Origin: Deltaproteobacteria bacterium | GTDB taxonomy: Bacteria > Desulfobacterota > Desulfomonilia > UBA1062 | Direction: 5' to 3' | DNA: 64,000 nucleotides | Assembly (NCBI GenBank): GCA_018434685.1 | Contig: JAHDOV010000004.1 | Coordinates: 124,001-188,000 of the forward strand | Part shown: positions 59,508-64,000 of the stretch, piece by piece | How positions within the stretch are numbered: position 1 is the stretch's first letter | Layout: every line of letters starts with the position of its first letter | Notes under the pieces: model-generated | Database searches by the model: none | Seen by the model: the letters and a program-made list of their open reading frames with translations, nothing else | What the model was told of the DNA's origin: nothing | Made by a program: the position numbers and the translations under genes

Positions 59508-59584
59508 AAAAAAAGGGCAAAAAAATGCCAGAAGAAGAAAAGGTGTAAGGACAAAGCACGAGAGGATTTGTCCCCTCTTCTGGC
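59508..59584 (-). terminator. Nested-hairpin intrinsic terminator or attenuator
   Basis: Outer 9-bp stem GCCAGAAGA/TCTTCTGGC (59576-59584 with 59527-59535) encloses an inner 7-bp stem GGACAAA/TTTGTCC. On the minus strand the hairpin is followed by A and seven U, then GCCC and seven more U. It would end a short transcript, or attenuate transcription into the nucleotidyltransferase-TPM-lemA genes. Confidence 0.72.
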
Positions 59585-59617
59585 GTAAAGGAGGTCAGAA
59601 CAACACTTGTTGTCTAT
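59519..59617 (-). ncRNA. Candidate small RNA with 16S anti-Shine-Dalgarno-like stretch
   Basis: Predicted minus-strand transcript of about 95-100 bases between TATAGT (59618-59623) and the terminator. It would fold as a short 5' hairpin, a single-stranded part containing ACCTCCTTTA (59585-59594), and the nested terminator hairpin. That 10-mer equals the end of bacterial 16S rRNA and would pair with ribosome-binding sites. The promoter is weak (no good -35), and a 5' leader for the downstream gene is an equal reading. Confidence 0.4.
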
Positions 59618-59669
59618 ACTATATAACAGCTTATCATAAGACAGTATATCAGCAAACTGCCCGAAGATG

Positions 59670-59687
59670 TGTAGGAATTAGACTACA
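59670..59687. promoter_or_regulatory. GacA-box-like inverted repeat
   Basis: TGTAGGAATTAGACTACA is 18 bases with TGTAG/CTACA arms. It agrees with the Pseudomonas GacA box (TGTAAG-N6-CTTACA) at nine of twelve fixed positions and in total length. It is centred about 67 bases upstream of the expected start of the small RNA candidate, a normal activator distance. Confidence 0.45.
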
Positions 59688-59892
59688 TGAGGCATCAGGC
59701 AAAACCTACGCTGGATCGCAGTGAATCCCCGCCGTGCGCCCGGTTATACGTGGAGGGAGGCGTAAGCAGAGCAAAAAAAACAAAAATATCAAGGGTCAAA
59801 GGAGCAAGGGCAGGAGGGTGTATGGGAGATGATACGTACTATTCCCGTGAGAAGAAAAAGGTGATTTGACCCCAGGGTCAACGAAAATCCTG

Positions 59893-59927
59893 GTAAGACT
59901 CATGACCGTCGCGATCATGAGTCTTAC
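59893..59927 (-). terminator. Possible terminator of the glycyl-radical-like gene
   Basis: A perfect 13-bp stem (GTAAGACTCATGA/TCATGAGTCTTAC, nine-base loop) that overlaps the stop codon. On the minus strand it is followed only by a weak CCAGGATTTTC, so termination efficiency is doubtful. Confidence 0.45.
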
Positions 59928-61942
59928 ACGTGAGCGGGGTTTTCCTGGCCTCTCGTTATGCTCTTGATGAGGGTCAATCGCCTCGACGATGGAGGCCTCT
60001 TAAGCCCTGTCACGGTATTATCCGCTGATGAAGACCATGCATCCAGAAGCTCAAGGAGGAACTCTTCAAAAAAGGGATGGATCTCGTTTGATGAAGAATT
60101 GCGCAGGAGTTTTTGCCGCATGGTTTCGGTGCCTTCGAAATCGGTCTGAATTGCATCACGGATTTCCGACAGGGTGAAGATGGCTTCGTCCAGGACATAC
60201 TTTTTAATCACCGCCAGGGCCTTGGCAAGGTCGATCATTCCATATGCCACGATGAGATCCTGACTGCTGTAGGACAGGGGGGTGTTGTCTTCGGTTGAAC
60301 CTTCGCCGCCAATGTTATTCAGGACCATCATGAAAGGATGGACAAGACCTGCATGGTTATAGGTCAGGAAGGTGTCGTTGAGCGCGGGATGGGTACGGTG
60401 CAGTTCCCTCTCGATCATGCCCGAGAACGACTGCACAAGCCTGGCAAAACATTTCCGGCGGATATCCTCTTCGAGGAGGGCCTTTTCTCCGGGCGAAAAG
60501 AGGCCATCATGTATGAGCAGATCGAGGATTCGGGTATGGTGGGCCTTTATCAACTCGCCAAGCTTCCCGGGAAATCCGTCCCGGTCCATGGTGCAGTCCC
60601 GGTACGCAATCCAGTTATGACAGTCGCGTATCCGGTCTTTGGCCTGCTCGGTAAAACTTTTCGTCCCTGCCTTGTCGTGGTATATATCCGGGCACCATCC
60701 TGCGTTCTGGATACCGTCGATGACCTTGCGTTTGAAGAAATCACCGAGATCGTCTCTCCAGCGCACGCCGAGAATGGGTTGTCTGGTGTGGATGTGCATC
60801 CGGGCCTGAATCATGAACTTTGAGAGCTGGGTGTCGGCGGGGTTTCCGGCTCGGTCTGATCCCGCAAGGGTAATGTGCTGATCGAGGGACCTGGAAATGA
60901 AGTCCCCTCTGGAGACAGGTTGAGCAAAGATCAGTTCCTCGCACTTGATCCTCAGGAGTTCGAGGAGTTCCAGGGCTTCGGGAACGCTCAAGGTGCCGTT
61001 TTGCAGATCATGTTCAAAGTACGGGTTCATATACTGGTCGAACCGCCCGGGGGAGACACCGCGTCCCTGGGATTCGATGCACAGGCTCAGGTGAACAAAC
61101 CAGAATGCCTGGAGGGCTTCGCGGAAGGTATCGGGGGCATGTCTCGGAACTTTTCGGCATATCCTTGCAATTTCAAGGAGTTCCTGTGTGCGATTCTGCT
61201 CCTGGCGCTGCCCGGCCAGACGTTCGGCCTCATCTGCATAGTTTTCTGCAAACGTGATGATGCCTTGAAGGAACCGGATAATGCCCTTGTAGAACATTAA
61301 ATTTTCGGCCTCGTTTCCAAAGGATAAAGGTTCGTTGCTGCTGATGCAGGCGCGGATGTGGTCAATTATGGAATCAAGGCCCTTTCCGAGGATGTTCCGG
61401 TAGTCGATGAGGAGAAGGCCATTGCAGGCACGAGGCGAAAAGTACCAGGAATTAAAGGGATAACGCCAGGAATCCGGGGGGCCGAACCGGCGGAACATCC
61501 GGACAAAGCTCTGTTCACACTGGCCCAGGAGATCCTTGTCCCGCCAGAAAGCTGTTGCCTGGTCTATGAGGCGACTGTCTTCGGTCAAGACAGAACACGC
61601 CTGGCTGGAGGGGTCATGCCCGTGCGCAGCGGTTTCTTTGCCGGCAGGGGCGGGCGGCGTGGAGCGTTTTTCCGGGTAGACGTGCGCCCCTCTGAGGTAG
61701 CGCGTTGCACTGCCCACAAGGAGTTCGTCATCCCATATCTTCGGGCTCAAATGAGCCAGGACATGCCGGAATGCCCCGGCTGTTCTCAGATGCACGGGTT
61801 CATCCCAGTGTTCCCTCATATACTCGGTAAAGTAAACAGCCCGCTGAGAATCCAGAAACGGTCTGGCCTCATTGAGATCGGAAAATCTGTTCTTTACCCT
61901 GGTGGTGGTAGGTTTCCCATAGATTGCAAGGCCTGCGAACAT
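59924..61942 (-). CDS. Glycyl-radical-enzyme (PFL-like) homologue without the radical domain
   Basis: 672 residues that follow the pyruvate formate-lyase/diol dehydratase fold: SPGRFDQYMNPYFE (297-310), a GSDRAGNPADTQLS segment near 361-374, and PDIYHD near 418-423 in place of PAIFND. C450 aligns with the catalytic cysteine region, but the usual GC(V/I)E is DCTMD, so the Glu partner is missing. AIKKYVLDEA...FEG-E-R is present near 592-618, after which the protein ends. The about 200 residues that normally carry the RVxGY radical loop are absent, and the downstream DNA does not encode them in any frame. A stop codon, not a frameshift, closes it. It is likely a pseudo-enzyme, or it depends on a separate radical domain. 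It lies behind the two-component genes. Confidence 0.7.
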   Translation of the reverse strand: MFAGLAIYGKPTTTRVKNRFSDLNEARPFLDSQRAVYFTEYMREHWDEPVHLRTAGAFRHVLAHLSPKIWDDELLVGSATRYLRGAHVYPEKRSTPPAPAGKETAAHGHDPSSQACSVLTEDSRLIDQATAFWRDKDLLGQCEQSFVRMFRRFGPPDSWRYPFNSWYFSPRACNGLLLIDYRNILGKGLDSIIDHIRACISSNEPLSFGNEAENLMFYKGIIRFLQGIITFAENYADEAERLAGQRQEQNRTQELLEIARICRKVPRHAPDTFREALQAFWFVHLSLCIESQGRGVSPGRFDQYMNPYFEHDLQNGTLSVPEALELLELLRIKCEELIFAQPVSRGDFISRSLDQHITLAGSDRAGNPADTQLSKFMIQARMHIHTRQPILGVRWRDDLGDFFKRKVIDGIQNAGWCPDIYHDKAGTKSFTEQAKDRIRDCHNWIAYRDCTMDRDGFPGKLGELIKAHHTRILDLLIHDGLFSPGEKALLEEDIRRKCFARLVQSFSGMIERELHRTHPALNDTFLTYNHAGLVHPFMMVLNNIGGEGSTEDNTPLSYSSQDLIVAYGMIDLAKALAVIKKYVLDEAIFTLSEIRDAIQTDFEGTETMRQKLLRNSSSNEIHPFFEEFLLELLDAWSSSADNTVTGLKRPPSSRRLTLIKSITRGQENPAHV

Positions 61943-62108: not shown

Positions 62109-62741
62109 TCAATCCACAAGCTTGTTCTGCACTGCGTAGAGCACGATCTCCGCATTGTTTTTCATGTTCATCTTTTCCAGGATCCGGGATCGATAGGTGC
62201 TCACGGTCTTGACGCTCAGGAACAGCTCGTCGGCAATTTCCTTGATGGTCTTTCCCGAGGCGATCATATGCATGACCTGATACTCGCGGTCCGAGAGCGC
62301 CTCATGAACAGGGTGGTCTGCATCGCGATCCAGCTCGTAGGTAAGCCTTTCCGCAAGCGAGGAGCTGATGTACTTTCTGCCGGTGGATACCTTCCGTATG
62401 GCAGAGATGAGTTCGTCGGGTGCGCTCGACTTGGTCAGATATCCCGATGCCCCGCCGCGCAGTACCCGGATGGCATAATGTTCCTCCGGATACATACTCA
62501 GGATCAGGACCGGAAGCTTCGGTTTCTGGTGCTTGAGTTCCCGGAGCACCTCGAGACCGTCTCGGCCGGGCATCGAGATATCCAGAAGGACAACATCATA
62601 CGTATTGCTCCACGCATATTTCAGCACTTCATGACCGTTTGTAGCCTCATCGACGACAATGATGTCCGTGGTTTCGGAAAGGATTTGCTTGAGTCCCTCA
62701 CGGACGATGGGGTGGTCATCGGCAATAAGTACCCGTATCAT
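62109..62741 (-). CDS. NarL/FixJ-family response regulator
   Basis: 210 residues: receiver domain (1-120) with acidic DD at 8-9, the phospho-acceptor D54 in VVLLDISMPG and a C-terminal K105 region, then a LuxR-type helix-turn-helix (about 145-205, SDREYQVMHMIASGKTIKEIADELFLSVKTVSTY). It overlaps the kinase gene by four bases. Likely target: the PFL-like gene and the non-coding gap, where GTAGG motifs cluster. Confidence 0.93.
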   Translation of the reverse strand: MIRVLIADDHPIVREGLKQILSETTDIIVVDEATNGHEVLKYAWSNTYDVVLLDISMPGRDGLEVLRELKHQKPKLPVLILSMYPEEHYAIRVLRGGASGYLTKSSAPDELISAIRKVSTGRKYISSSLAERLTYELDRDADHPVHEALSDREYQVMHMIASGKTIKEIADELFLSVKTVSTYRSRILEKMNMKNNAEIVLYAVQNKLVD

Positions 62742-64000
62742 TGAGAACCTCCCTCATGTTCGAACGGTATAGAGACATCAACGGTCGTGCCCTTTCCCTT
62801 TACCCCAAAAAACCGTACATCTCCACCACAAAAATAGGCCCGCTCCCTGATTCCCATGAGGCCGAATGATTTCGAATCTTCTATCTGTTTTTTTGTTATG
62901 CCCTTGCCGTTGTCTTTGACGATCATCTTCAAGCTGCCATCCTCCAGGCGAAGAGATGTTTCAACTTTGGTTGCATCGGCATGCCGCGCAATATTGGTAA
63001 GGGTCTCCTGAAAAATCCGGAAGATCGTCGTGGCCACATCCTTTTCCAGCTGGATGTCTTCCGGATTCACCTGAACGAGACAGGTGATCCCGGTACGCTT
63101 CTGAAATTCCTCTGCCTGCCATTCGATTGCCGGTACCAGGCCGAGATGGTCGAGCAGTCCGGGCCGCAGGTCCATGGTAATGCGCTTGACCGACTGGATG
63201 GTCATATCTATGAACTTGAGCATGAGGCTTGCCTTGGTATGCAGCGGTTCGAGTTCCCTGGGCAGTTTTTTGGACAGGTAGGAGAGGTCCATCTTCAGCG
63301 CAGTGAGGACCTGTCCCAGCTCATCGTGGATCTCACGCGCCACGCGGGTTCTTTCTCCCTCCCGTACATCCTGTGCATGTTTATGGAGATTGCGAAGCTG
63401 CTCCCGCGAATGCATGAGGTCCTCCTCCGCCTTTTTCCGTTCGGTAATGTCCAGCAGCGAGGTCACGCTTTTCTTTGTTCCCGGGATGATGTTGGAGGTT
63501 GCAAAGACATCTTTCGTAACGCCGTCTTTGTCGATAAAGCGGTACTCATAGTTCCTCGGCGCAGCCAGAGGGTCCTTTCTCCTGAGGATATGATACTGCC
63601 TGATCCGTTCACGGTCTTCTTCGGTCGCGAAATCGTCCCAGTAGGTTCGACCACAGATTTCAGGCACCGGGTATCCCGACAATTTCTCGAATTGTGAGTT
63701 GGCAAGGGAGAGCCTTCCGTCTTCTTCGATGATCGCCATGGCGGTTCCGGTATTTTCGAAGATCGTTCGATAGCGCTGCTCGCTTTCCTTGAGCGATTCT
63801 TCCGCCTCTTTACGGCTCGTGATATTCCGGGTAATCCCGACAAACCCATCCGGCCGTCCCTTTTCGTCCAGCACGAAGCTCGCGGTCACCTCTGTCCATA
63901 TTATGGAGCCGTCTTTGCAGAGCTGCTCCAGTTCCACGGTGACGGAACTGTTGGGGTTGATGGGCATGCCGCTTTTTTGCAGGGAGATGTATTTCCCGGC
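62738..64000 (-). CDS. PAS-domain sensor histidine kinase, partial
   Basis: The reading frame stays open to the right edge, so the N-terminus is missing; the apparent ATG at 63967 falls inside a truncated PAS domain (EVTASFVLDEKGRPDGF...ITRNIT). A second PAS/PAC (about 55-175 of the visible part) precedes a HisKA_3-type dimerisation domain with phospho-His in REIHDELGQ (His at about 63326-63328), then an HATPase domain (NGKGI). No membrane segment is visible in the 420 residues present. It phosphorylates the adjacent NarL-type regulator, by gene overlap and HisKA_3 type. The signal is unknown. Confidence 0.9.
   Translation of the reverse strand, partial: AGKYISLQKSGMPINPNSSVTVELEQLCKDGSIIWTEVTASFVLDEKGRPDGFVGITRNITSRKEAEESLKESEQRYRTIFENTGTAMAIIEEDGRLSLANSQFEKLSGYPVPEICGRTYWDDFATEEDRERIRQYHILRRKDPLAAPRNYEYRFIDKDGVTKDVFATSNIIPGTKKSVTSLLDITERKKAEEDLMHSREQLRNLHKHAQDVREGERTRVAREIHDELGQVLTALKMDLSYLSKKLPRELEPLHTKASLMLKFIDMTIQSVKRITMDLRPGLLDHLGLVPAIEWQAEEFQKRTGITCLVQVNPEDIQLEKDVATTIFRIFQETLTNIARHADATKVETSLRLEDGSLKMIVKDNGKGITKKQIEDSKSFGLMGIRERAYFCGGDVRFFGVKGKGTTVDVSIPFEHEGGSQ

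Follow-up and report, generated by a model that had tools for sequence, protein, structure and literature searches.

Bacterial small RNAs (sRNAs) whose exposed anti-Shine-Dalgarno (aSD) motifs repress mRNAs include the csRNAs, LhrC, NmsRA/B and NfeR1 (PMC3091779, PMC4132741, PMC5362039, PMC10746234), and multicopy sRNA sets under two-component control are known (PMC3091779, PMC4132741). The streptococcal csRNAs of the CiaRH regulon comprise several similar sRNAs per genome, each with an unpaired aSD stretch between two stem-loops (PMC3091779). In Listeria, the LhrC1-5 RNAs of the LisRK regulon are multicopy, two-component-dependent and guanosine-poor, and bind the Shine-Dalgarno region through three CU-rich unpaired sites in a loop, the linker and the terminator loop (PMC4132741). 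Rhizobial NfeR1/alpha-r14 exposes the unpaired aSD CCUCCUCCC at redundant sites that silence many mRNAs (PMC10746234), while NmsRA and NmsRB of Neisseria meningitidis, a species with an Hfq genome, are sibling sRNAs with one UC-rich aSD in the stretch that separates their stem-loops and a second one inside a loop (PMC5362039). The Rsm/Csr RNAs combine a TGTAAG-N6-CTTACA upstream activating sequence (UAS) with a UvrY/GacA-type regulator and expose GGA motifs to sequester CsrA (PMC4950607, PMC4682653). In Desulfovibrio vulgaris, a sulfate reducer formerly placed in the Deltaproteobacteria, a response regulator is reported to target the sRNA gene just downstream of its own (Dv_sRNA2 below DVU0679; PMC3333781).

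Here we describe an sRNA gene on the minus strand of a 64-kb window, the whole stretch of DNA analysed, from an uncultured Deltaproteobacteria bacterium; all coordinates are positions in this window. We propose that its RNA works like the csRNAs, LhrC and NfeR1, a likeness of mode and not one of demonstrated kinship: Rfam 15 gave no matching family at either gathering or E-value thresholds, and the defining motifs of the csRNAs, LhrC and alpha-r14 were not found. The csRNA arrangement of an unpaired aSD stretch between two stem-loops is also predicted for the window sRNA, which likewise has several similar copies per genome and is probably under a two-component regulator. The csRNAs differ in belonging to the Firmicutes, in being controlled by CiaR with TTTAAG repeats and not by a GacA-like protein, and in that most carry an anti-start-codon CAU; TTTAAG was not seen on direct reading of the DNA that precedes the window copy. 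LhrC is similar in being multicopy (the window's genome has 10 copies of the present sRNA), in a two-component dependence that is suggested here by box and synteny, in the scarcity of G in its unpaired segments, and in its three unpaired sites, but the third site of the window sRNA bulges from the 3' arm of the terminator stem and is not the terminator loop. Moreover, LhrC is a Firmicutes RNA of other sequence, answers to LisR and uses a UCCC motif in place of CCUCCUU; the UCCC repeat is absent from the window sRNA, whose linker reads CCUCCUUU and whose apical loop contains UCCUCU, although C-rich sites are present. NfeR1, from the Alphaproteobacteria and under LsrB and NtrC control, folds into three hairpins that each bear the same aSD, whereas the window sRNA has a single CCUCCUU in its linker. 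NmsRA and NmsRB are two siblings only, with other sequence and other control. The Rsm/Csr RNAs resemble this locus in UAS and regulator type, yet what the window RNA exposes is complementary to GGA-type sites. The likeness to Dv_sRNA2 is one of gene arrangement.

A conserved RNA gene on the minus strand

The sRNA has a length of about 95 nt (59519-59613, minus strand), its 3' end being set by a U run and its 5' end placed from the promoter alignment only. All the elements listed in an earlier note on this DNA, namely an inverted repeat, a hexamer, hairpins, a 10-mer and two U7 runs, were found on the minus strand. By direct reading, the 5-bp hairpin ACAAC-AAGU-GUUGU (59600-59613) comes first and is followed by the aSD ACCUCCUUU (59587-59595), predicted to be single-stranded, and by a nested two-tier terminator hairpin (59527-59584) with the outer stem GCCAGAAGAGG/CUUCUUCUGGC and the inner stem GGACAAA/UUUGUCC. 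This hairpin contains a C-rich apical loop (59556-59566) and a C-rich 3' bulge (59538-59548). The U7 run of the intrinsic terminator lies at 59519-59525 and the second U7 run at 59514-59508. Upstream, the TATAGT hexamer is indeed readable at 59623-59618, but alignment with the relatives, which have TGTATA/TTTATA at the same distance, makes TTATAT/TATATA (about 59620-59626) the more probable -10 element; the predicted start barely shifts.

The sequence is not a chance arrangement: a blastn search of 60 relatives recovered it from 16 additional genomes of its family with E values between 1e-47 and 1e-28, and the region also detected five paralogs in its own genome. A covariance model built from 21 copies (R1) found 10 copies in the window's genome; across the family it found 55, spread over 18 of the 24 genomes, which are Desulfobacterota metagenome-assembled genomes (MAGs). 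The window sRNA scored 91 bits with R1 and 85.2 bits (59596-59518) with R2, the model rebuilt from all 55 copies, so that the models span 85-91 bits. Under stricter filters, which weak matches may escape, R2 found no copies in a wide scan of 18 class-mates outside the family or among the remaining genomes of a phylum sample numbering 395. When 84,980 genomes were scanned with a pattern, the matches were confined to MAGs bearing the titles Deltaproteobacteria, Syntrophaceae or Thermodesulfobacteriota, apart from three sites in Zipacnadum (L110), Dehalococcoidia (L123) and Thermodesulfatator (L140), which the covariance model did not match and which we regard as chance. Nearly all genomes are metagenome-assembled, relatedness inflates these counts and the model E-values are rough. 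A literature search, with most subscription journals outside its scope, found no paper describing the family, and the 55-copy family thus appears undescribed so far.

In the 55-copy alignment, which was fitted to the structure of the model and is hence biased towards it, standard pairs fill 91.6% of the stem pair cells, and double changes occur in 42, compared to 16.9 in shuffles and 2-18 with slid partners. Covariation was counted on the 3' domain, since MAFFT fails to align the paralogs' 5' hairpins correctly. A U run 3' of the stem is retained in 55/55 copies, which sets the minus strand as the coding one. These features also bear on the possibility that the plus strand encodes a short protein, in which case CCUCC would simply be the complement of a Shine-Dalgarno sequence. 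Such a reading can draw on AAAGGAGG, followed 12 nt on by a TTG, but stops fall at varying positions and no frame is conserved among 17 orthologs, and both the terminator U run and the stem covariation lie on the minus strand; we consider that there is practically no chance of its being correct. The window sequence is a conserved RNA gene with a strand, a structure and a copy number, and the sRNA reading with an exposed aSD gained from the covariation and the 10 copies in one genome.

Four classes and their neighbours

The copies fall into four classes, all with CTCCTT as their core and GCC[AG]GAAG as their outer stem. Class A, the type of the window copy, comprises 17 copies with the hairpin ACAACAAGUGUUGU followed by UCUGACCUCCUUUACG; class B (14 copies) has the hairpin CUCUCUUC..GAGAG, class C (7 copies) the hairpin CUCUCUGUAAGAGA, and class D (16 copies plus one odd copy in G003) has AACUGAAACCUCC. 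The 5' hairpin of class A is kept in 16/17 copies, and in classes B and C a hairpin of other sequence occupies the same place. The class D loci are L055 (1501-1579), L072, L082, L083 and L088-L100; a conserved ACTGGGGT..ATCCCC element was seen upstream of several of them.

In most genomes the class A gene order is kinase, regulator and sRNA, with nucleotidyltransferase, TPM and LemA genes frequently coming next. Since these three genes lie 3' of the sRNA on the same strand, both here and in several other genomes, the RNA could be their attenuated leader. However, the sRNA does not directly precede them in G017, G009 and G011, and the nine paralogs in the window's own genome lie elsewhere, next to unrelated neighbours. 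Class D likewise precedes a gene, rplU (bL21), which is readable just downstream in 16 of 17 copies (in G014 its start could not be located), yet rplU is provided with a conserved promoter of its own, CTTGACAATC..TTTCATTAATAGCTC (TTGACA), 3' of the class D terminator, and this rules out class D as an rplU leader. Because the downstream genes change among genomes and paralogs and, in class D, a separate promoter serves rplU, the leader role fails, and the attenuated-leader alternative raised earlier is now highly improbable.

Accessibility and pairing potential of the aSD sequence

A CCUCCUU-type aSD stands just upstream of the terminator hairpin in all 55 copies. On the minus strand, positions 59595-59586 read ACCTCCTTT(A), i.e. 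ACCUCCUUUA. The earlier note had equated this 10-mer with the 3' end of 16S rRNA; nine of its ten bases are identical to that of a relative, G016 (GGATCACCTCCTTTCTAAGG), but the tenth differs. G016 serves as the reference as it has the only complete 16S 3' end readable in the family, the 16S gene of the window's genome being absent from the assembly; two GGATCACCTCCTT matches were considered as the own 16S 3' end and rejected, as they look like coding sequence. Comparison of the relatives found the CTCCTT of the 10-mer in 55/55 copies. Its proposed location in an unpaired stretch between hairpins agrees with the predicted folds of class A, where the mean unpaired probability of CCUCCUU is 0.77, with individual copies ranging from 0.22 to 1.0, versus 0.47 for all 8-mers; the means for classes B, C and D are 0.65, 0.72 and 0.80.

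Beyond the aSD, each RNA is predicted to leave two C-rich, G-poor segments unpaired. The unpaired segments predicted in the 3' domain consist of 36% C and 5% G, and a CC is kept in the 3' bulge of 53/55 copies. Pairing potential was computed for 182 predicted starts in nine stretches of the genome, the window among them. Interactions of the aSD segments at or below -12 kcal/mol are 3 to 5 times commoner at these starts than inside genes, and this difference between starts and gene interiors is significant; in class A, however, the mean pairing energy at starts (-8.13) is not better than that of shuffled segments (-8.02).

Alternatively, CCUCCUU and the stem may bind a protein, such as Hfq or a ribosomal protein, instead of mRNA, with the aSD likeness being secondary. 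The outer stem GCCAGAAG is very highly conserved across all classes, beyond what a plain terminator needs, and class D adjoins the ribosomal protein gene rplU. That gene, however, is served by its own promoter, and the other unpaired segments change in sequence while staying C-rich and G-poor, as expected for Shine-Dalgarno pairing. We therefore give the protein-site explanation a small chance only.

A GacA-like box accompanies the adjacent regulator

The kinase and regulator genes lie upstream of the sRNA on the same strand. The response regulator (62109-62741), with receiver and GerE domains by Pfam and NCBIfam, is UvrY/GacA-like and the probable activator of the sRNA; its probable cognate, judged by domain match and synteny, is a PAS histidine kinase (62738-63967). 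The best NCBIfam model for the regulator is UvrY/SirA/GacA (NF007018), with 194.7 bits against a curated cut-off of 280, and the protein is 38% identical to E. coli UvrY over its full length. In 14 genomes a class A copy has such a kinase/regulator pair next to it, and the regulator orthologs beside the sRNA in the 13 other genomes are 70-92% identical. Between regulator and sRNA, the window encodes a PFL-like protein of 672 aa (59924-61942, minus strand) in which the Pfam glycyl-radical domain was not matched; this gene occupies that position only in the window's genus (G000-G002) and probably stands outside the kinase/regulator/sRNA system.

GacA is known to recognise the 18-bp UAS TGTAAG-N6-CTTACA (PMC4950607). 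The window carries a matching 18-bp inverted repeat, TGTAGTCTAATTCCTACA (TGTAGT-N6-CCTACA, 11/12), at 59670-59687, and a putative degenerate box, CGTAGG-N6-CTGATG (59693-59710, minus strand), that aligns with the -114 position used by most relatives; according to this alignment the two boxes stand in tandem at a spacing of about 22-23 bp. A TGTARG-N6-CYTACA box with at least 10/12 matches precedes 14 of the 17 class A copies, at -114/-115 or -91/-92 from the core. It is found in all 14 copies with an adjacent regulator, with 12/12 matches in nine of them, and in none of the three without one (G011, G016 and G018), where the best candidate reaches at most 8/12, the random level in mononucleotide shuffles. 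G014 and G020, congeners of these three genomes, retain both regulator and box, and the losses may go back to a single event; G018 is a contig-edge case in a genome 86% complete. In G011 and G016 the class A copies that lost regulator and box (L056, L065) lie behind a P-type ATPase gene. The association of a GacA-like box with the neighbouring kinase and regulator, as first noticed in the window alone, is thus upheld by conserved synteny and by joint presence and absence, and TGTARG-N6-CYTACA is probably the binding site of the adjacent regulator.

In classes B and C we found a related 19-bp box, TGTARG-N7-CYYACA, at -115 to -119. All seven class C copies fit it at 11-12/12, and class B is mixed, with most copies fitting. 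In classes B, C and D the strict N6 box is either missing or matched no better than at random, and class D showed neither the N6 nor the N7 form. Since class D has no box, the UvrY/GacA-like regulator cannot control the whole family. The N7 box is perhaps read by a paralogous regulator, copies of which exist at 59-65% identity. A TTTCAG..CTGAT element also occurs upstream of class B and C copies (e.g. L075, L078, L047, L048).

A GacA-like box with its regulator, several copies per genome and the presence of a CsrA gene would also suit an RNA decoy of the GacA type, one that titrates CsrA as RsmX/Y/Z and CsrB do. Yet Rsm/Csr RNAs carry several unpaired GGA motifs each (PMC4950607), whereas class A RNAs average 1.4 GGA and 0 ANGGA per molecule, their GGGGA sits in a paired arm, the unpaired 3' segments are as poor in G as given above, and the Rfam Rsm/Csr families were unmatched. 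With GGA motifs few and paired, the decoy is disfavoured and we judge it very unlikely.

Proposed mode of action

As the decoy is disfavoured and the ORF and leader readings fail, pairing with Shine-Dalgarno sequences is the remaining reading. We consider it fairly likely that the RNA is a free-standing, trans-acting sRNA that is induced by the GacA-like two-component system and blocks ribosome binding sites. The PAS histidine kinase would phosphorylate the GacA-like response regulator encoded beside it, just upstream of the sRNA, and the phosphorylated regulator would activate the sRNA promoter via the TGTARG-N6-CYTACA box. Transcription would stop at the strong intrinsic terminator, yielding an RNA of about 95 nt that presents the single-stranded ACCUCCUUU together with the two C-rich, G-poor segments. 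These are expected to base-pair with mRNAs at their G-rich Shine-Dalgarno regions and thereby to hinder ribosome binding, possibly assisted by Hfq, genes for Hfq and CsrA both being present in the genome. A translation block by the sRNA is probable on these grounds; its transcription, regulator binding, pairing mechanism and targets are all inferred.

A more far-reaching and rather doubtful suggestion is a GacS/GacA-like pathway with reversed output, in which an RNA mimicking the 16S 3' end covers GGA/Shine-Dalgarno sites instead of removing CsrA. The system might then act as a broad translation brake, graded by copy number and working alongside or against CsrA, with paralogs wired to the N7-spacer box and a differently controlled copy beside rplU.

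The family, with 55 copies and up to 10 per genome, belongs to uncultured Desulfobacterota, in which RNA regulation is little known, and ties an sRNA to a named two-component class with a concrete DNA site. If the Shine-Dalgarno-blocking reading is true, multicopy regulated aSD RNAs have independent origins in Firmicutes, Alphaproteobacteria and Desulfobacterota, and control by a GacA-like protein can lead directly to the blocking of Shine-Dalgarno sequences instead of to CsrA titration.

Further boxes and kinase neighbours

The exact TGTAAG-N6-CTTACA sequence occurs once in the 4.3-Mb genome (L153 1502-1660; G000:C47:451752). One-mismatch boxes elsewhere in this genome (L154-L158, L160-L162) had no sRNA nearby. 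About 80 nt past the exact box lies a hairpin, GCCAGAAGA..UCUUCUGGC (stem GCCAGAAGA/TCTTCTGGC), that scores 25 bits and has neither CCUCC nor a U run; from its position and score, it is a putative decayed or diverged relative of the sRNA. Four class C copies (L075, L078, L079, L085) directly follow, on their own strand, the gene for a large hybrid histidine kinase, an arrangement that, by gene order, is a candidate second kinase-sRNA pairing.
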